DNA from: a virus
IMG/VR virus record: IMGVR_UViG_3300047408_000089
Location: 1-30,757 of that record
Length of the DNA: 30,757 bases
Reading direction: 5' to 3' (one strand)
The position numbers and the translations under genes were made by a program. Position 1 is the first letter of the stretch. Each line of letters opens with the position of its first letter. Under the pieces are notes generated by a model. The model had not been told where the DNA came from, did no database searches, and saw nothing but the letters and a program-made list of their open reading frames with translations. This document shows, piece after piece, positions 15,716-30,757 of the stretch.

Positions 15716-16315
15716 TCACCGCCGCCGGTTGTCGTCAAAGACTTGTTGCCAGTCGCGGCCGGCCGGGCCTTGCGGACCGGGGCCGCCGTCCTTCCCGTCT
15801 TTGCCATCGCGCCCGCGCTTGACCTTGAGCGTCCAGGCCTTCGAGCCGTCGCCCGGTTTCGTCGCGGTCGTCGTCTGGCAGTGCCACTCCGACCCGCTCC
15901 AGGTAACGCTGTCGCCGGGGTCGTACGTCTTCCCCTCGGTCCACACGCCGCGGTAGAGCGCGACCGGGAACGACGCCGTCCCGATTTCCTTGACGCGCGC
16001 ACCTTGGGCCGCCGTAATTACGAAGGACCGCTCGTCGCGTTGCGTGACACTGAGGTCCTCGAAGCCGAGGCCATCGATCCCGTGGTCGCCATCGCGGCCG
16101 GCGGGTCCTGGCGGGCCGGGCACGGGCGCCAGCGTCTCGAGCACGGCCACGCGTTCCCGCAAGGGGCCGACGGCGGTCGTCTGCGAGACGACCGCAGCGA
16201 GTTGGGTTTCGGCGACGGTCATCCGGTGCGCGAGCGGGCCGACCATGCGCGCGACATAGTCGCGAATGACGGGGGTCATCCCGTTGACGAGGGCCGCGAG
16301 GTCCTCGGGGGTCAT
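15716..16315 (-). CDS. Collagen-like protein with carbohydrate-binding-like module (199 aa)
   Basis: An N-terminal helix (residues 1-60) may trimerise. A collagen-type Gly-X-Y run follows (GPPGPAGRDGDHGIDGLG). A beta region then has GVWTEGKTYDPGDSVTWSGS and EWHCQ, typical of CBM5/12-like chitin- or glycan-binding folds. A second Gly-X-Y run (GRDGKDGKDGGPGPQGPAGR) ends the protein. It lies between portal and connector genes and overlaps the portal start region by ATGA. The likely role is a trimeric head or neck fibre that binds surfaces or glycans. Confidence 0.75.
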   Translation of the reverse strand: MTPEDLAALVNGMTPVIRDYVARMVGPLAHRMTVAETQLAAVVSQTTAVGPLRERVAVLETLAPVPGPPGPAGRDGDHGIDGLGFEDLSVTQRDERSFVITAAQGARVKEIGTASFPVALYRGVWTEGKTYDPGDSVTWSGSEWHCQTTTATKPGDGSKAWTLKVKRGRDGKDGKDGGPGPQGPAGRDWQQVFDDNRRR

Positions 16316-17691
16316 GCGGCCAGCGCCTTCGTGAGGAGGTCGGTCACCAGCATCGACAACTGTCCCGGCGGCAAGGCGGGCGCCGCCATCGGCGCCGGCT
16401 CCGGTGCGCTGAACGGATCCGCCGCGTCGCGCTGGGCGAGCGCCTTGAGGCTGAACATCTGCTGCTGCATGTACGGCGTATCGCCGCCCTCGACCGGGCC
16501 GAGGCCGAAGTACCGCAGGCGCGCTTCATCCGGCGACATCGCGCCGGCGCCGATCGCATCGGCCGCGGCTTTCGTCTTCGTCGCCGTGTCCATCCAAATC
16601 AGATCGTCGATGTCGAATTCGGTCCCATAGTCCGTCCCGGCCAGGCCGAGGCCGTCATCGAGCACGGTCTCAAAGTTGGTCGTCAACGCTTGGATGGCCT
16701 GCGAGTAATAGAGCTGCGTCATCGCGTCGAGTTGCACGCCCCGGGGGATTTCGGCCGCGCCGATCATCCAGGCCGGCACGTGAAAGACGCTGCAGATGTT
16801 CGCGGCCGTCCAGCCCAGTTGCGCGATCAGCTCGGCATCCACCGCGTTCATGGTTAATTGCGTGTATTTGATGTCGGCCGTGATGACGGCGACCTTGCCG
16901 GCGTTGGCGGCCCCGTTAAAGGCATTCCAGTCGGTCTTCGCTTGCGTGAGTTGTTCCTGGGTCATGCCGGCCGGCGCCGTGATCAACCCGCTCGGGCGCG
17001 CGCCGTTCGTGAAGAACGCGCCGGACTGTTGCTGAATCGCCAAGCCTTGCATCGCCGCCGACGCGCACGCATAGATCGGCGACATTCCGACCAGGGGATG
17101 GAATAAGCACACCATCCGGTCGTGGATGATCTCGGAGGCCGGCACAATGAAGGGGTCCGGGATGTCCACCAGCTCGCCGCTCAAGTTGTCCCGCTGCAGT
17201 CGGTAGTACACGCCGCCATCGGGCGCGATCAGCGTGGTCACGCGCATCGGGTCGAGCACATAGAGAGCGACGACGACGCCACGCGCATCGCGCTCTTTCA
17301 AGATGTAGGCGTTGCCCCACATCAATTTCGACGTGATCCACTGCTCGACGAATTTCGGCGTGGTCTGATACCGATTCGGCTTGCGGAGCACTGGGCTGAA
17401 CGCGGGCGAGCTCGCCTCTTCCCACACGCCATCGGCGTTCTCTTCGACCAGGCGCAACGTCAACTTGCCGATGTCCTGCGCGATGAGCGTGACGCACGCA
17501 AACACCGGCGCATACGCGACGACCTGGTCGCGGCGGGCCTCGACGTTGACTTGCCAGGCGCCGGTATACGGCTCGCGCACCACGAGGGGAAACCACCCGC
17601 CGCCACTCGTCGCGCCCGGGCTGTACGGCGCCGCGTAGGTCTTCGCCGTGACCTCGACGCGCCGGCCGAGCAGCGTGACGCCGAAGGTCAT
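16312..17691 (-). CDS. Portal protein (459 aa)
   Basis: The protein matches the HK97-type portal family in order and motifs. It has VFACVTLIAQDIGKLTLRLV near the N-terminus, KPNRYQTTPKFVEQWITSKL, WGNAYIL, VYYRLQRDN, HDRMVCLFHPLVGMSPIYAC, and VFHVPAWMIGAAEIPRGVQL later. The C-terminal ~60 residues are Pro/Ala-rich. Twelve copies would form the DNA channel at one capsid vertex and bind terminase. ATG 17691 overlaps the upstream stop by ATGA; the longer open frame overlaps the previous gene and is rejected. Confidence 0.93.
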   Translation of the reverse strand: MTFGVTLLGRRVEVTAKTYAAPYSPGATSGGGWFPLVVREPYTGAWQVNVEARRDQVVAYAPVFACVTLIAQDIGKLTLRLVEENADGVWEEASSPAFSPVLRKPNRYQTTPKFVEQWITSKLMWGNAYILKERDARGVVVALYVLDPMRVTTLIAPDGGVYYRLQRDNLSGELVDIPDPFIVPASEIIHDRMVCLFHPLVGMSPIYACASAAMQGLAIQQQSGAFFTNGARPSGLITAPAGMTQEQLTQAKTDWNAFNGAANAGKVAVITADIKYTQLTMNAVDAELIAQLGWTAANICSVFHVPAWMIGAAEIPRGVQLDAMTQLYYSQAIQALTTNFETVLDDGLGLAGTDYGTEFDIDDLIWMDTATKTKAAADAIGAGAMSPDEARLRYFGLGPVEGGDTPYMQQQMFSLKALAQRDAADPFSAPEPAPMAAPALPPGQLSMLVTDLLTKALAA

Positions 17692-18194
17692 CGCCGCCGG
17701 GCCGCGGTCACCGTGAAGGACTGTGGGGCCGAGAGGACGCCGCCCGCGCGCACCGCGACGGGGATCACGCCCGCGCCGGCCGCCGTCAGATCCGCCGTCG
17801 CCGAGGCCGAGGTCTCGGAGTCCACCGTCGTCGGCAGGTCGGCGCCATCCCACACGATGACGCTGTCAGGGCTGAAGCCGGTCCCAGCGACCACGACGGG
17901 GACACTCGCCGTCCCGGCCAGCGCGGTCGAGGGCGTCAGGGTCGTAATCGTGGGGGCCGCGGGCGGTGTGTCCGTCCAGCCCGCAATCGAGACGAAGCCG
18001 ATCCCGCGCAGCGTTTCCGCCAACGCGCGATCGGTCACGGCGTACGTCTCGCCTTCGAGATGGATGTTCTCGTTTTCCGTGTGGTAGACCCGTGCGGTCA
18101 CGTCCACCGAGTCCTCCGCCTGCGTGTCAGGCCGGAGCCGGTCATCGCCCGCGGCGCGGCCGTGGTGGCGTGTCCCGTGTGCCTCAGCGACCAT
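17688..18194 (-). CDS. Ig-like (IPT/TIG) domain protein, possible head decoration (168 aa)
   Basis: Residues ~1-75 hold a basic His/Arg lead and a short helical segment (TDRALAETLRGIGFVSIAGW). The rest is one IPT/TIG-type domain: PTITTLTPSTALAGTASVPV, then VVAGTGFSPDSVIVWDGADL. The pattern 'P-x-I-x-x-L-x-P' followed by 'GTGF' and 'V-x-W-x-G' is typical. Ig-like domains on phage particles often serve as surface decoration and weak glycan adhesion. It lies between capsid and portal genes, overlapping the portal start by ATGA and the preceding gene by 11 bp. Confidence 0.75.
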   Translation of the reverse strand: MVAEAHGTRHHGRAAGDDRLRPDTQAEDSVDVTARVYHTENENIHLEGETYAVTDRALAETLRGIGFVSIAGWTDTPPAAPTITTLTPSTALAGTASVPVVVAGTGFSPDSVIVWDGADLPTTVDSETSASATADLTAAGAGVIPVAVRAGGVLSAPQSFTVTAARRR

Positions 18195-18390
18195 GTGCTT
18201 TTCTCCCTGTCTCCCGCGGCGCCGGGGCGACGTGCCGCCGCGCAAAGCCGGCTTGCTCGAGCGTCTCGACCATCGACGCGTCGACGTCGATCGGGTCGCC
18301 GACCACGCGCCAGGTGCCATCGAAAAACCCGTCGCGGATCACGGCCATCGTGACCCGCGGCGGGATGGTTGACTCGTCCATCTGGTTCAT
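18184..18390 (-). CDS. Small head-region protein (68 aa)
   Basis: The product begins MNQMDESTIPPRVTMAVIRD and has an FFDGTWRVVGDPIDVDASMV strand-loop and a basic C-terminus. ATG 18390 overlaps the capsid stop by ATGA, and the 3' end overlaps the Ig-domain gene. The family is not recognised. A minor head component or head-completion factor is inferred from position. Confidence 0.6.
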   Translation of the reverse strand: MNQMDESTIPPRVTMAVIRDGFFDGTWRVVGDPIDVDASMVETLEQAGFARRHVAPAPRETGRKAHGR

Positions 18391-20279
18391 GCGGTGTAGG
18401 TCGCGACGGTGTATTGCACGCAGCCCGCGCGGGCCTTTTTCCAGTTGATGAACCGCTCGGCCCGCAACCCGACCAGGTTGTTTTGCCAGAACGACGTCAT
18501 GACCGTCGTCGCCAGGGCCGGATTGTCGGGCGCCGAGTCCATCTGGACCGACGCTTCTTGCGACACGTCGATCGTGACGCCGCCGTCATCCGCGTAGAGG
18601 ATGGCGTCCGGCTGCACGAGCGCGACGGTCGTGCCCATCGCCTGACTCGGAATGACCGTGATGCCGCCCATGACGGTCCCGCCGTTGAGACTCAGCGAGG
18701 GAAACAGCGGTTGCCCGAGGGCGTTGAGCGCGTTCGAGAGCGCTAGCGCATTCGTCGTCGACATCAGGAGCACGGCGCCGCCGATCGGAATCCCGGCGGC
18801 CGACATCGCCGCCGCGAGGGCTTGAATGTCGGTGCGCGCGTTGGCCGGCGTCGGGCCCGCGGTCGTGATCGGGGTGACGCCATTCGTCACCGAGCCCGGC
18901 GAGACGCCGGCCACGGGCGCCTTACTCGGATCGGTAAATTCGACGTCGAGGAAGGCCGCGATCCCGTTGATCATGTCCTGCCGGATGACCGCTTCCGCCG
19001 ACGGCGTCGATGTGCGCGCGAGCTCGAGCGTGATCACGATGATCCCGGCGCACTTCGTGATCGTCAGCGAGACCGATCCGAACTGCAGCTTCCCGACGGG
19101 CTTCGGCGCCCCTTGCCCGACCCATTGATACGTGCCGCCGCCGGTCTGGCTGGCGATCGTCACGTTGAAAGGCACCTGCCGGAACCCCGGCACTTTGCCC
19201 AGGATGGTCGCCGGCCGTAGAAGCGCGAGAAACTCATTCGAGAGCGGCATCAGCGGCGCCAACGGGCCAGCCCAGGTCGCGTCCGTCGTGGTGCCGGCCG
19301 CGACCGCCGCCTTGAACACGAGGCCGACTTCTGGCGTCGAGTCGTCCCACTGCTTGGCGTACTGTTCCGCCTGCATCAGGTTGCCCTTGCAGGCCGCGAG
19401 CCCCTGGACGAAGCGGACGAAACCGGTTCCCTTGGGGAGTTGCGATCGAACCTGGATGATCGGCACGCTGCTGCTGCGTAGGTCACTCCCCGCGCCCGCC
19501 GTGGTCGTCGGCGTCACGGCCGTCGCCCGCGTGACCATCGTCGCCTCGAGGGCGCGCAGGCGCACGAGATGCGCGTCGATGGCCTTGAGCTCGCTCGCGA
19601 GCCCGTCGTACTCCTCGGTCTGGGACTGGTCGAGGGTCGTGTCGTCCGACGCGGTCATGAGGGCCGTCATCCGCGCGTGCTTGGCGGCGCGGGTGTTCTC
19701 GAAGCCGGTGATCTGTTCGTGGGTGGTTTTATGTTCCATGGGACGCGCGCCCTTGTCGACGCGCACGATCGGGAGCGGGTCCCTGTCGCGGGACGGATGA
19801 CGGCCAGTCGCGGCCAGGTCGAGTGACTTGATGCTGTGAATCGTGGCCTCGGCGTTCGCCGGGATCGCGACGAGCGAGAGTTCGAGGACTTCGGTTTTCA
19901 GAAACCGGATCCCGCCGGTCGCCTTGTTGAAGCTGTCCTCGATCGAGCGAAACCCAATCGAGACGCCGGCGAGCAAGCCCGCCTTGACGGACTGCCAGGC
20001 TTCCTCGATGCGGTCGCGCACGACGCCGGGATCGGCGACCGTCGGCAGCGAGGCCGTAAAGGCCAGGCCCTCCGCGGTCGGCGGGCTGAACGTCACCGAT
20101 CCGACGGGTTTCTTGGGGTCGTGGTACAGCAGGAGCGGGAGGGACTTCGCGAAGGTGACCCCCAGCGGCTCGATCACGTCGCCCATGCGATCGGGCGTCG
20201 GCGTCGAGGCGATGCCGGTGATCGTCCGTTGCTCGGCGTCAACGGCTTTGATGGTGAGGAGCGAATACGCGCGGGTCAC
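18387..20279 (-). CDS. Fused HK97-type prohead protease and major capsid protein (630 aa)
   Basis: Residues 1-165 are a U35-type prohead protease: GIASTPTPDRMGDVIEPLGV, the His motif LLYHDPKKPVG, and the Ser-region motif LLAGVSIGFRS. Residues ~181-260 are a helical delta/scaffold segment starting MEHKTTHEQITGFENTRAAK. From ~270 the HK97-fold capsid protein follows (KGTGFVRFVQGLAACKGN, then WAGPLAPLMPLSNEFLALLR). Protease and capsid are usually separate genes. The start is GTG 20279. A possible internal start at ATG 19739 (AAGGG about 8 nt upstream) could give free capsid protein. Self-cleavage is expected in either case. Confidence 0.9.
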   Translation of the reverse strand: MTRAYSLLTIKAVDAEQRTITGIASTPTPDRMGDVIEPLGVTFAKSLPLLLYHDPKKPVGSVTFSPPTAEGLAFTASLPTVADPGVVRDRIEEAWQSVKAGLLAGVSIGFRSIEDSFNKATGGIRFLKTEVLELSLVAIPANAEATIHSIKSLDLAATGRHPSRDRDPLPIVRVDKGARPMEHKTTHEQITGFENTRAAKHARMTALMTASDDTTLDQSQTEEYDGLASELKAIDAHLVRLRALEATMVTRATAVTPTTTAGAGSDLRSSSVPIIQVRSQLPKGTGFVRFVQGLAACKGNLMQAEQYAKQWDDSTPEVGLVFKAAVAAGTTTDATWAGPLAPLMPLSNEFLALLRPATILGKVPGFRQVPFNVTIASQTGGGTYQWVGQGAPKPVGKLQFGSVSLTITKCAGIIVITLELARTSTPSAEAVIRQDMINGIAAFLDVEFTDPSKAPVAGVSPGSVTNGVTPITTAGPTPANARTDIQALAAAMSAAGIPIGGAVLLMSTTNALALSNALNALGQPLFPSLSLNGGTVMGGITVIPSQAMGTTVALVQPDAILYADDGGVTIDVSQEASVQMDSAPDNPALATTVMTSFWQNNLVGLRAERFINWKKARAGCVQYTVATYTA

Positions 20280-20305: not shown

Positions 20306-20515
20306 CTATTTGCGCCGGACGAAAGGCGGCTTCTCGCCGTAGTCGGCCACGAATTCGTTGACCGCCTCGCGCAGGATCCCCGACAGGCCGGTGCGATTGT
20401 CGCTCGCGACGCGTTGGATCTCGAGGCGTTGCGCGGGCGTCACGCGGACTTCAATGCGCGCGGTGGCCGCCACGTCCGCGAGCGGGGGCCGTCCCGTTCG
20501 GCGTTTCGCACTCAT
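20306..20515 (-). CDS. Ribbon-helix-helix-like DNA-binding protein (69 aa)
   Basis: After a basic lead (MSAKRRTGRPP) the sequence ARIEVRVTPAQRLEIQRVAS has the strand-helix of RHH proteins, followed by GLSGILREAVNEFVADY as second helix. Such proteins are dimeric regulators of about this size. ATG 20515 overlaps the alpha-CTD-like gene by ATGA, so the two are probably made together. A role in late gene control or its shut-off is possible. Confidence 0.7.
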   Translation of the reverse strand: MSAKRRTGRPPLADVAATARIEVRVTPAQRLEIQRVASDNRTGLSGILREAVNEFVADYGEKPPFVRRK

Positions 20516-20829
20516 AGTGGACCTTTCACCCGATCACAAAACCCCGGACAGTGCGGAAAATATGGACATGGCAACACGAGATCCAGTTCGCGAAGCGCCC
20601 GTTGGGTTTCCGCTAGCGATTTTCGACCGAAGCCAGGAATCTTCAAGAGATCCACGCATGTCGATTCGAGAAGCTGACCGATCGTCCGATCCGCTGTTCT
20701 TGGGCGCTTCGAGTCATTGATCCGTGCGACAAATTCATCAACATCGAGCTTACGGGTAAGGCAGTTGCGCGTTCTTGTAGGGAGACTCAGATCTTGAATC
20801 AACCGAATCCTTGGATCAGTCCCCCTCAT
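20512..20829 (-). CDS. Stand-alone RNA polymerase alpha-CTD-like protein with Cys-rich tail (105 aa)
   Basis: Residues 13-24 (DLSLPTRTRNCL) and 48-76 (RTIGQLLESTCVDLLKIPGF with GRKSLAETQ) align with the bacterial RNA polymerase alpha C-terminal domain. The positions equivalent to E. coli R265, N268, C269, G296, K298, S299 and E302, known for UP-element DNA contact, are R19, N22, C23, G68, K70, S71 and E74. About 18 extra residues separate the two halves. A tail with C88, H93, C94 and C98 may bind a metal. No alpha N-terminal domain is present. By eye its DNA looks less GC-rich than its neighbours, suggesting later acquisition. It overlaps TerL and the RHH gene by ATGA. Confidence 0.75.
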   Translation of the reverse strand: MRGTDPRIRLIQDLSLPTRTRNCLTRKLDVDEFVARINDSKRPRTADRTIGQLLESTCVDLLKIPGFGRKSLAETQRALRELDLVLPCPYFPHCPGFCDRVKGPL

Positions 20830-22367
20830 CCGAGCACCAGCATTGAATAGGTCGGCCGCTTCTCGGCCGCCATGTAATCCCGCCGATGCAACGCCATCAC
20901 GAGCGCGCTGGCCCCGTCGATCCGTTCCGTCGAGACTTTCTTCGAGAGCTTGAGATTCCCCGCCGGATCCGATTCCACCGCAATGTTCGAGATGTTCCAG
21001 CGGAGCACCGGGTGCCCGTCATGCCGCAGCGTCCGCGAGAGAATCGCCGCCTCGAGGGATTTCGTCGGGGCCGACAACGTCGCGTACCCTTGGCGAATCT
21101 CCACGAGCGCGAACCCGTCCTGTTCCTGGAGGCGCGTCACCAGATCCCTGGCATTCCACGGATCGAAGGCAATTTCCCGCACGTCGAATTCCGCCCCCCA
21201 GGCCCGCAGGGTCTGGCGGACATACTCATAATCGACCACGTTGCCGGGCGTCGCCACGAGCCAGCCCTCGCGGGCCCACTGGTCATACGGCACCCGGTCC
21301 CGGCGCACGCGCTCGGCCATGTTGTCCGCCGGCACGAAGAACTGCGCCAGGACGTCGAAGCCGGAGCCCTCGTCATCCGGAAACAGGGCGACGATCGCCG
21401 TGAGATCCCGCGTCGAGCTCAAGTCCATCCCGACGTAACAGCGGCGGCCGCGCAACCGCGCGCGGTCGAACGCCGGCACGGCGCACGCATCCCAGGCCGC
21501 CAGGGCGATCCAGCGGGCGGCTTGTTCCGTCCACTGGTTCAGGTACAGCCGGCGAAAGGTGTTCTCTTGCGCGGGGATTTCTTTGGCGCGCGCACACGCC
21601 ATCCGCATTTCTTCGAGGCTGCGGAAATCGCCCAGCGCCGGATTCGCCTTATGCCACACGCGTTCGTCGGTCCAGTCCGCGTCGATCGGCGCGTCGTACA
21701 ACAGGGGCAGGAACGTCGGATCGATCGCCGGAGACTCCTGGACTTTCCGCGCGTGCGTATAGAGCTCCCACAGAATCGAATGCCGGTCGTAGCCCGCGGT
21801 GGAAATCGCGAGTGTCATCGGGTGCCGCCGCGCCCCTTGGGACGTCGTCAACACGTCCCACAGTTCGCGGTTCGGGGCCGCGTGCAGCTCGTCGTAGATC
21901 ACCGCCGACGCATTGAAGCCGTGCTTTGAGTACGCCTCGGCCGAGATCGCGCGATAGAAACTCCCGCTGGCGCGATGCACGATCCGCTTCTGCGAATCCA
22001 CCAGTTCACACTGCGCCAGCAATTCAGGATCATTCCGGATCATTTGCGCCGCGACGTGGAACACGAGCGCCGCCTGGTCCTTGTCCGCCGCCGCGGAATA
22101 CACCTCGGCCCCCATCTCCCCATCGAACAACAGAAAGTACAGCGCCAGCGCCGCCGCCAGTTCGGTCTTCCCGTTCTTACGGGGCAGCATCAATAAACAC
22201 TGGCGATAGACGCGCCGGCCATCCAGGCCGGTCCGAAAGAGTCGCTCGAGCAGGCGGCGTTGCCACGGCCGCAGCGCAAACGGCTGCCCCGCAAACACGC
22301 CCTTGGTGTGCGTCAGGTTGTTGATCACCCGAATGGCGCGGTGCGCGTGCTGCAGGCGTCCTCTCAC
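20826..22367 (-). CDS. terL: Terminase large subunit (513 aa)
   Basis: The N-terminal ATPase has a deviant Walker A (LPRKNGKT, residues 61-68) and Walker B with catalytic acid (AVIYDELHA, Asp159-Glu160). The C-terminal nuclease has acidic strands YVGMDLSSTRDLTA, REIAFDPWNARDL and DGASALVMAL. This is the Terminase_1-type phage packaging motor, which cuts concatemers and pumps DNA through the portal. The start is GTG 22367, overlapping the small subunit stop by GTGA; the longer frame from 22385 is less likely. It lies directly after TerS. Confidence 0.95.
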   Translation of the reverse strand: MRGRLQHAHRAIRVINNLTHTKGVFAGQPFALRPWQRRLLERLFRTGLDGRRVYRQCLLMLPRKNGKTELAAALALYFLLFDGEMGAEVYSAAADKDQAALVFHVAAQMIRNDPELLAQCELVDSQKRIVHRASGSFYRAISAEAYSKHGFNASAVIYDELHAAPNRELWDVLTTSQGARRHPMTLAISTAGYDRHSILWELYTHARKVQESPAIDPTFLPLLYDAPIDADWTDERVWHKANPALGDFRSLEEMRMACARAKEIPAQENTFRRLYLNQWTEQAARWIALAAWDACAVPAFDRARLRGRRCYVGMDLSSTRDLTAIVALFPDDEGSGFDVLAQFFVPADNMAERVRRDRVPYDQWAREGWLVATPGNVVDYEYVRQTLRAWGAEFDVREIAFDPWNARDLVTRLQEQDGFALVEIRQGYATLSAPTKSLEAAILSRTLRHDGHPVLRWNISNIAVESDPAGNLKLSKKVSTERIDGASALVMALHRRDYMAAEKRPTYSMLVLG

Positions 22368-22786
22368 GCCAGGACACCCGCCCACTTACTCGCCGTCTCG
22401 CGCGGCGGGGTGGTCGCCATCCGGGACCGGCTCGCCGGCTCAAGCCCAAAGAGGGCGTAGAACGGCCGAAGCGAGGCCGCTAGGGCCCGTTCTCGGCCCG
22501 CGTCATAGTCCGGGCCCCCGCGGGCCTGCGCGTTCGCGGTGAAGCTCGCCTGGAGCTCGCAGAGCGTCCCAAACGCCAGCGCATCGGCCGGGGTCAACGT
22601 CCCCAGGCCGAGACAAACCGGCGCTAACCCGTCCCAGACCCGATCCGCAGCCGTCGACAATGCCGGCTTGACCACCGGGCCATCCGGCGCGGCGACCGCG
22701 GCACCCAGGCGCGTCTTACTCGGGTTCCCCCGTAAGGCGCGCAACGCGAGCGGTTCACGACGACGGCCACTATTGGCATTGCCCAT
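22364..22786 (-). CDS. terS: Terminase small subunit, P27-like (140 aa)
   Basis: The N-terminal MGNANSGRRREPLALRALRG then NPSKT is typical of P27-type small terminases. A helical centre (LTPADALAFGTLCELQASFT) and a C-terminal SRMATTPPRETASKW complete the family pattern. It recognises the packaging site and brings TerL to it. The upstream 90 bp hold strong dyads that could be that site. ATG 22786 follows a GGGG-containing leader. Confidence 0.85.
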   Translation of the reverse strand: MGNANSGRRREPLALRALRGNPSKTRLGAAVAAPDGPVVKPALSTAADRVWDGLAPVCLGLGTLTPADALAFGTLCELQASFTANAQARGGPDYDAGRERALAASLRPFYALFGLEPASRSRMATTPPRETASKWAGVLA

Positions 22787-22876: not shown

Positions 22877-23701
22877 TTATGCACCTGAAGGACTTAGATG
22901 TATTCGACGTTGTGCCGATCGGACGAGCGCGACAAGCGCAGCTATTCGATTCCGTTCAGTGATTGGGGTGATCGCTGCGATTGATGGGTATCGCCCTTTC
23001 TTTGTGTACCGTGTGTGACAGCGGTCCGAACAGAAGACTTTATTCGGTCGAGTGGTGATGAACTGTGCGCCACAATCCGGACAGCAAGACTGCGCGGGTT
23101 CATGTGGCTGATAGCGACCGCGCAGGCGAGTACGAGTGCGAAGTCGGGCACACGCACGGCACCTCTGCGCCAGTGGGCGCTTCGCCGCGCCACATGCACA
23201 TACAGACTGGAGCTCGAGTTGTTGCGCGCGCATGAGTTCGCGCGCGAAAGACTGGGCCTGCTGACGAGTCGCCGCCAGGGCGCGGGCTTCCGCCGTCTGG
23301 GATTGCGCCGTCCGAAATCCACCCCAGCATTTCTTTGAACAAAATCGAAAAACCTCGGTTCGATGCCGAGGCCCTGCACTCCTTCGCCTGAATTCACCAC
23401 CGCACTGTTCGCAAATCCTCGTCGGGACGGTTCGCTGCTGCCGCTGTCGTTCGCAATCCAGACAATGTGTGGCCCCTGAGCTCTTCCAATGACCACACGC
23501 GCACGTCGTCTGCGTGGTTTGGTGTTGTTGCCAACAAGCCTTACACTGCTTTCCCGTTTTAGACTTCCACCCACCGCAGGCACAAGGTACCCGCACAGGA
23601 GCACGGCCGGCGGCGCTTGGTGGCTTTAAGCGCCCGTTTGGATAGCGAGGCCGGTCGGGTATCCGGTTCCGGCCGCCGGATCGACCCTTCACTCCGGACA
23701 T
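22877..23701 (-). CDS. Five-cluster zinc-binding protein (274 aa)
   Basis: Cys clusters follow at about residues 40-56, 67-83, 97-125, 168-184 and 207-228. Clusters 1, 2 and 4 have identical spacing CxC-x10-CxxC (for example CACGGWKSKTGKQCKAC). Clusters 3 and 5 are CxxC-xn-CxxxC with CEQCGGEF and CPDCGAQF. The order is A-A-B-A-B with a long helix between 3 and 4. The N-terminus MSGVKGRSGGRNR resembles leads found in phage packaging-region proteins. No HNH residues are visible in B clusters. DNA binding near the packaging site, or a homing-nuclease relative without its catalytic part, are possible. Confidence 0.7.
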   Translation of the reverse strand: MSGVKGRSGGRNRIPDRPRYPNGRLKPPSAAGRAPVRVPCACGGWKSKTGKQCKACWQQHQTTQTTCACGHWKSSGATHCLDCERQRQQRTVPTRICEQCGGEFRRRSAGPRHRTEVFRFCSKKCWGGFRTAQSQTAEARALAATRQQAQSFARELMRAQQLELQSVCACGAAKRPLAQRCRACARLRTRTRLRGRYQPHEPAQSCCPDCGAQFITTRPNKVFCSDRCHTRYTKKGRYPSIAAITPITERNRIAALVALVRSAQRRIHLSPSGA

Positions 23702-29354: not shown

Positions 29355-30268
29355 GCCGGTCTCCGAGCGAGAGACACAAGGAATCCGAACGATCGGAAGG
29401 CGTCATGAAACGCCGCGATGTCATCGCCGATATAGAGCACGGCTTGACCTTGCAACGGAGCAGCGGCCTCTTTTTTGGGATGCCAGAACCGCACGCGGCC
29501 CGTGGGAAAACAAATCGCTGATGCGACGTCGGCGAGGGCGCGAAACCATTGCGTCTCTGTCGCGTTGTTGACGAGCACGACGGCGGCGGGGACAGTTCCC
29601 GCGGTCACGCTCTCAGCGAGTTTCTCGCAGAACTGCGTGACGAGCGGCTGCGCGTACGGAGGGTTCATCCAGACGCGCCCGTCCCAACGTTGATCAAGCC
29701 CGCTCGCTTGCTCGGTAAAAATCTGCCCGGCCTTGACGACGGCATTCGCAGCGTCGTTGGACGCCGGATCAAGATCGATTTCGCCCAGCACGATACGGGC
29801 GGCTTCGATGTATTCCGCCGGCGTGTACCACTCCTGTTCGCCCGTGTTCTCGCCGACGTGTGCACCCTGCTCGAGTTCGAGGATCTTCACGTAGCGGGCA
29901 ACGGCTTGTTCGAACGTCGCCTCGAACGCACCGGGTGCGCTCAGTCTCTTGCGCCACCGATGAACAATGATTCGCCCAGGAAGCCCATTACGACCAGCAG
30001 CCACCGTTTCAGGTCGGTAACGCTGGGTTTCTCCGCGCGTGCGCCGTTCGCTTGCACCGGGGCCCTGGGAATCCCACCACGACACAAACTCGGCTTGTGC
30101 TTCGAGCTTCGTGCGGATTGCGACCCGCAATTTACTGGCATCCTTGGCGCGGGCGTAGTGCTTTTCGGCGACTTCCGCGACGGCAATTTGCTGAAGCCCC
30201 TTCTGTGGGCTGTAGCGCGTGAGCGGTTCGCGTCGGCTTGGCGCCAGCGATCGAGAGGAGGTCTTCAT
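29351..30268 (-). CDS. Phage DNA N6-adenine methyltransferase (305 aa)
   Basis: Residues ~146-300 form a phage Dam-type domain: [32 protein letters not shown], the catalytic NPPY at 202-205, [14 protein letters not shown] and [15 protein letters not shown]. The N-terminal 140 residues are helical and basic with VHRWRKRL, probably DNA-binding. ATG 30268 overlaps the exonuclease stop by ATGA. It likely protects phage DNA against restriction or marks it for replication control. The target sequence cannot be read from the gene. Confidence 0.88.
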
Positions 30269-30757
30269 CGCTGCTCGCGCTCCAGCCACCAAGCTTCATG
30301 CGCCATCGGCAGGGAGGCATAGCACGTCCGCCGCGGATACCCGACCCAGTCCCCCGTCTTGCGGCTCGCGCGCCACACCTCGAGCGCGTAGAGGCACTTC
30401 TTCTCGGCGAGGACCATCGCGTCGGGCCCGAGCGCGATCACCGACAACGCATACGGCGGATAGGTTTCCTGGACGGCGTACCGGAAGATCGCATCGTCGA
30501 GCCCGGTCAAGGTCCGCAGGCCGCGCAGGTACCACGCCGCCTGCAGATCGAAGCCGGCCTGAAACATGGTCCGCGTCCAGGTGTCCGGGTTCGCGCCGGC
30601 GCTCGTGGTTTTGAAATCGTCAATGGCGCCGGGCCGCAGCCAGTCGAGGCGCGCGCGGCACCAGACGGTGGCGAGCGGATCGCCGGTGAGCTGCTCGAGC
30701 CAGACGAGCGTTTGTTCTGGCTTCCCGTTCGTGAACATGCCGGCGCCGCCGTCCTTG
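30265..30757 (-). CDS. RecE/RecB-type exonuclease, second copy (C-terminal part, cut by right edge)
   Basis: The visible 163 residues carry [16 protein letters not shown] (Asp and the DxK motif) and the LQAAWYLRG motif. They are about 92% identical to the left copy over 157 residues (13 differences by my count). The last 27 bases match 1179-1205 exactly, and the match runs to the edge. Unlike the left copy, the stop overlaps the methyltransferase start by ATGA. The N-terminus lies outside the window. Confidence 0.85.

Follow-up and report, generated by a model that had tools for sequence, protein, structure and literature searches.

A recently acquired, stand-alone alpha-CTD-family gene between terL and an RHH-like gene of a phage: a candidate for interference with host promoter recognition

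A 105-residue protein of the RNA polymerase alpha-CTD family is encoded by a recently acquired accessory insertion between the terminase large-subunit gene (terL) and a small RHH-like gene of a virus genome. Judging from its sequence, the most likely role of this protein, to which we assign a probability of about 0.4, would be to occupy alpha-CTD DNA sites, and thereby to blunt host transcription or to shift promoter competition. The window, i.e., the whole stretch of 30,757 bases that was analyzed (IMG/VR virus record IMGVR_UViG_3300047408_000089), is from a soil phage; it carries an integrase gene and thus probably represents a temperate tailed phage. The features on which the analysis rests are the following.

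16312..17853, minus strand: portal protein (phrog_2271)
18387..20279, minus strand: fused head-maturation protease and major capsid protein (PF04586, PF05065, phrog_617)
20306..20515, minus strand: small RHH-like protein (blastp to the ORF after terL in relatives)
20512..20515, minus strand: ATGA overlap of 4 bp, alpha-CTD stop and RHH start
20512..20829, minus strand: 105-aa stand-alone alpha-CTD-family protein (PF03118 40.6 bits, VIA Z 10-11, GC3 0.50)
20536..20568, minus strand: Cys/His tail C88-x5-C94-x3-C98 with H93 (CPYFPHCPGFC)
20695..20748, minus strand: 18-residue insertion between helices 1 and 2 (residues 28-45, by alignment)
20826..20829, minus strand: ATGA overlap of 4 bp, terL stop and alpha-CTD start
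20826..22385, minus strand: terminase large subunit, terL (phrog_9, E 2.7e-169; PF20441, PF03354)
22364..22786, minus strand: terminase small subunit, terS (phrog_83)

An earlier note on this DNA had described the gene at 20512-20829, with a product of 105 residues and no N-terminal assembly domain, all of which is correct. The ORF runs from 20829 to 20512 on the minus strand; read on the plus strand, the same interval meets a stop already at codon 2. The location within packaging and capsid genes is borne out by the matches for terS, terL, capsid/protease and portal, and the coupling to the RHH gene is tighter than had been described, as ATGA overlaps join the gene to both terL and RHH. The label RHH derives from inspection of the sequence at 20306..20515, for which no family match exceeded its cut-off. 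Elsewhere in the window, a Cys-rich, HNH-endonuclease-like ORF (22877-23701; phrog_15471) is found upstream of terS, and an exonuclease VIII-like gene occurs twice, at 713-1205 and 30265-30757, the two copies being 90% identical and in the same orientation. The right copy is cut by the end of the window, and the pair reflects either paralogues or an assembly-end effect.

The sequence places the protein in the alpha-CTD family. It matches the Pfam model RNA_pol_A_CTD (PF03118) with 40.6 bits and an E-value of 2.2e-10, the curated cut-off being 23.8 bits; the insertion divides the domain, which is why its second half matches best. Its sequence matches in the PDB are RNA polymerase alpha almost throughout. 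The best NCBIfam rpoA model, however, scores 31.2 bits against a cut-off of 302, far below the level of full-length RpoA, as expected for a protein without an alpha-NTD. The seven residues claimed as UP-element contacts are all there (R19=R265, N22=N268, C23=C269, G68=G296, K70=K298, S71=S299 and E74=E302, in window and E. coli numbering). Since these residues are near-universal in alpha-CTDs, they confirm membership and provide no independent evidence beyond it. Three other positions differ from E. coli, namely E261, E286 and R317, which align with S15, C58 and P89, respectively, while D259 is kept as D13; in E. coli, these positions face sigma or CRP. Within the viral alpha-CTD set, position 261 is E or D in 60 of 71 sequences; counts at positions 296-302 of that set are biased, as the search patterns demanded those motifs. 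The net charge of the window protein is +6, and the mean for viral and bacterial alpha-CTD domains is near 0, a comparison of a whole protein with domains.

The predicted fold agrees with this assignment. An AlphaFold2 model generated from, and dependent on, a 54-row alignment of viral alpha-CTDs has a mean pLDDT of 74, with residues 51-90 at 83-91; the prediction from the single sequence was uninformative (pLDDT 45). Alpha-CTDs were the top Foldseek matches of the model, and the best rows of a VIA-align comparison superpose it on solved alpha-CTDs with Z 10-11 and an rmsd of 1.1-1.8 A over 61-67 residues. That is, the geometry predicted is that of an alpha-CTD, and not that of a generic helix-hairpin-helix protein, the outcome that the earlier note had set as its refutation. 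The offsets at the two ends of this superposition (residue 4 to 250, and 88 to 316) correspond to an insertion of 18 residues, and the alignments give the same length, as had been claimed. In the model the inserted segment forms a helix (residues 29-37) followed by a loop, with pLDDT 59-64. Between helices 1 and 2, bacterial sequences have no inserted residue (22 of 22 examined), whereas eight other non-identical viral copies carry 8-16 extra residues at the same place; the uninterrupted spacing, which the window protein lacks, is usual rather than strictly defining, as other viral PF03118 members have insertions too. The C-x5-C-x3-C tail, with a His before the second Cys, is as described earlier (C88, H93, C94, C98). 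It is not folded in the model, where metals are not represented and pLDDT drops below 50 from residue 94 on; a zinc site in the tail is possible but unsupported.

We compared the window with 80 terL relatives from IMG/VR. Homologues had been expected between terL and capsid genes, but none of the 80 encodes a relative of the window protein; the gene is therefore a private insertion and no conserved component of the packaging module. In the closest relatives, the RHH gene starts no more than 3 bases ahead of the terL stop and no more than about 20 bases beyond it. One of them (L009), whose flanks are 91-94% identical to the window, has terL abutting RHH, and in several others, L013 and L021 among them, an ATGA overlap joins terL directly to RHH. 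It follows that the alpha-CTD gene was inserted at this stop/start junction. A small RHH-like gene is conserved directly after terL in those relatives with a recognizable RHH; blastp gave no RHH match in 49 of the 80, most of which still carry a short ORF (55-75 residues) in that position. Base composition also sets the gene apart, with a GC content of 0.52 versus 0.656 for the window and a third-position GC (GC3) of 0.50 versus 0.83-0.88 in its neighbors, a deficit (-0.38) larger than that of any other viral alpha-CTD ORF examined.

Absence from the same junction in close relatives and deviant base composition are both characteristic of a moron. A promoter or terminator of its own would be a further mark, but a scan for sigma-70-type promoters gave no match near the gene, and the one terminator-like match compares with a chance expectation of 0.9 +/- 0.9; we thus refer to an accessory insertion and do not claim a moron in the strict sense. 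A chimeric assembly was rejected, as both junctions form exact ATGA overlaps. Recent capture from an acidobacterial host is also unsupported, in that the matches in 297 acidobacterial genomes are nearly all rpoA, at 31-48% identity. Relatives of terL were found in only two MAGs, at 50-56% identity.

Searches of IMG/VR, GTDB genomes, phages and plasmids revealed no close homologue of the window protein, and no relative emerged when viral and genome contigs were scanned for its exact peptides. In the phage and plasmid collections, tblastn matches were mostly bacterial rpoA at about 30% identity; one of the matches, MT839982, is a bacterial rpoA fragment, and another, the human gut phage contig MT835636, encodes a sigma-4/alpha-CTD fusion. 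Detached alpha-CTD domains are nonetheless recurrent in viral contigs. Three profile scans of these contigs gave 30, 90 and 83 loci, partly overlapping, in which the nearest domains share about 36-42% identity with the window protein. The set of viral alpha-CTD-like proteins is thus broad, and the window protein is an orphan in it. Sigma-70 region 4, searched for with one RpoD region-4 sequence of E. coli as the only query, is fused to or near the domain in 12 of 73 alpha-CTD loci versus 0 of 80 terL loci (Fisher p 8e-5, in a test that ignores relatedness and differences between phage groups). The Pfam domain Sigma70_r4 is present in fusions at L085, L103, L112, L114, L171 and L083, and as a separate ORF of the same loci at L107, L127, L167 and L174. 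This association links the wider viral set with promoter recognition. Among the ORFs of the window, no sigma-4-like match was found.

Other arrangements were seen in this set. Copies follow DNA polymerase genes at L127, L129 and L136, and one lies in a virion gene cluster (L169). A single ORF, L165:4920-5531, combines an alpha-CTD (PF03118, 6e-15) with GroES/Cpn10 (PF00166, 2.6e-7), the portal gene being one ORF away. At L107:4215-5787, two alpha-CTD ORFs stand in tandem, the first with a weak Sigma70_r4 match, and are followed by the separate Sigma70_r4 ORF. HTH_17, sigma region 4 and alpha-CTD are joined in one chain at L083, L112 and L114, one of which is from MT835636. Two genomes of bacteria from the same phylum as an acidobacterial MAG encode proteins of 167-169 aa, stop to stop, in which a different N-terminal part precedes the alpha-CTD (L206:4593-5099 and L207:4550-5050).

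What might such a protein do? A free alpha-CTD fold would bind DNA through the same face as the domain of the polymerase, but outside the polymerase. Because the gene is ATGA-coupled to terL and has no promoter-like site nearby, we expect it to be expressed with the late genes; the protein would then appear alongside TerL and RHH at a late stage of the lytic cycle, and would occupy A/T-rich upstream promoter DNA on host templates. Either alpha-CTD-dependent host transcription would be blunted, or competition would be shifted to phage promoters that work without UP elements. We favor interference with host promoter recognition because the DNA contacts are kept while the sigma and activator contacts E261, E286 and R317 are changed, the pattern expected if the polymerase and activator side had been released. 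The decoy idea of the earlier note would agree with this pattern of retained and lost residues. The basic overall charge and the lack of UP-like tracts above chance in the phage's own genome also speak for interference, as does the fact that other phages attack the same contact. The alternative offered in that note, guidance of polymerase to phage late promoters, found no support as far as UP elements are concerned. UP-like tracts in the window do not exceed those in shuffled sequence, which argues against UP-type late promoters, and the window has neither a sigma-70-like promoter match near the gene nor a sigma-4 partner. Thus, of that interpretation, the stand-alone alpha-CTD family stands, by sequence and predicted fold, while late-promoter guidance and homologues between terL and capsid genes are not supported. 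Interference has its own difficulties. The isolated alpha-CTD binds DNA weakly, so competition would call for strong expression or for some additional contact, which the insertion and the tail, both of low confidence in the model, could supply. A late gene position is odd for a takeover factor, the sigma region 4 beside relatives favors a co-activator, and the context of the Cpn10 fusion is not obviously transcriptional.

The main rival is a co-activator or adaptor, i.e., a free alpha-CTD that docks on host polymerase, sigma region 4 or RHH and helps recruit polymerase to phage promoters. We consider this rather improbable, albeit the strongest of the alternatives. The excess of Sigma70_r4 at viral alpha-CTD loci over terL loci speaks for it, as do the acidic residue at 261 in most viral copies, the retention of D259 and the coupling of the gene to a DNA-binding-type RHH gene; in the window protein itself, however, residue 261 is a serine, the window has no sigma-4-like ORF, no UP-like tract or promoter-like site is near, and the RHH gene of relatives occurs without an alpha-CTD. 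Somewhat less probable still is a plain DNA-binding module that plays no part at promoters and serves, e.g., packaging, replication or the handling of the nucleoid. Such a module would suit a site between terL and head genes, the viral alpha-CTDs that adjoin DNA polymerase or helicase genes, and the Cpn10 fusion one ORF from a portal gene. Yet the insertion is recent and relatives package without it, and the residues kept are those that contact promoter DNA. Least probable, in our judgment, is that the gene is a passenger, a recently transferred fragment with no present benefit to the phage. The GC3 deficit, the single instance and the lack of a close relative would be natural for a passenger, but the frame is intact, both ATGA junctions are exact, and the contacts persist at only 36-42% identity to the nearest relatives.

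If interference with host promoter recognition is correct, a phage-made copy would be a strategy of mimicry, where known phage actions (e.g., T4 Alt/ModA, Rac) modify or remove the host domain, and one could then test whether a free alpha-CTD changes promoter use in the cell. The wider set points to recurrent, barely annotated viral alpha-CTD and sigma-4/alpha-CTD proteins, and these detached domains, some joined to a sigma piece, suggest a little-studied way to interfere with or redirect transcription. More speculatively, phages may keep a pool of detached promoter-recognition modules (alpha-CTD and sigma region 4; single, tandem or fused) that move as small genes, and the window protein might be a fresh capture that alters promoter choice by mimicry, not by polymerase modification; we regard this broader idea as tentative.

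Among known systems, the host alpha-CTD (E. coli RpoA ~250-317; PDB 1lb2, 3n97, 7khc) shares with the window protein the fold, the seven UP contacts and the L/P/G/S/L/E core, but not the 18-residue insertion, the Cys tail, the changes at E261, E286 and R317, or the absence of alpha-NTD and linker. The same contact between alpha-CTD and UP element is a target of T4 Alt/ModA, which ADP-ribosylate R265 (PMC2988021), and of Rac-encoding, phiKMV-like phages, which cause a cleavage that detaches the alpha-CTD (PMC7552054). The T4 work also shows that transcription is not always depressed when R265 function is lost (PMC2988021), a point against interference. These enzymes act on the alpha of the host, which they modify or cause to be cleaved, and are not domain mimics. 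Separate alpha-CTD-like proteins are likewise encoded by Bacillus phage vB_BmeM-Goe8 (gp005, 'RNA polymerase subunit alpha'), Microbacterium phage Atraxi (gp24, 'DNA binding protein') and Ruegeria phage vB_RpoS-V16 (gp23, 'HTH-domain containing protein'), all found with other viral alpha-CTDs as query rather than with the window protein. Unlike the window gene, these lie outside a packaging operon in the regions read, and they have no recorded function; the open-licence full-text literature yielded no paper on phage-encoded alpha-CTD proteins and no description of their function. Small IMG/VR proteins (the L127/L136 group, L129, L146, L152 and L169) have 8-16 extra residues at the same place and are about 28-38% identical to the window protein, but without the C-x5-C-x3-C tail. 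The sigma-4/alpha-CTD fusions (L103, L112, L114, L171, L083, L085) contain the same detached domain together with Sigma70_r4 and other HTH domains, whereas the window protein is alpha-CTD only. Already known are the alpha-CTD domain and phage copies of it, held in databases under vague names; new in the window gene are a product that is alpha-CTD only, the longest insertion seen, the Cys tail, and the coupled position between terL and RHH.
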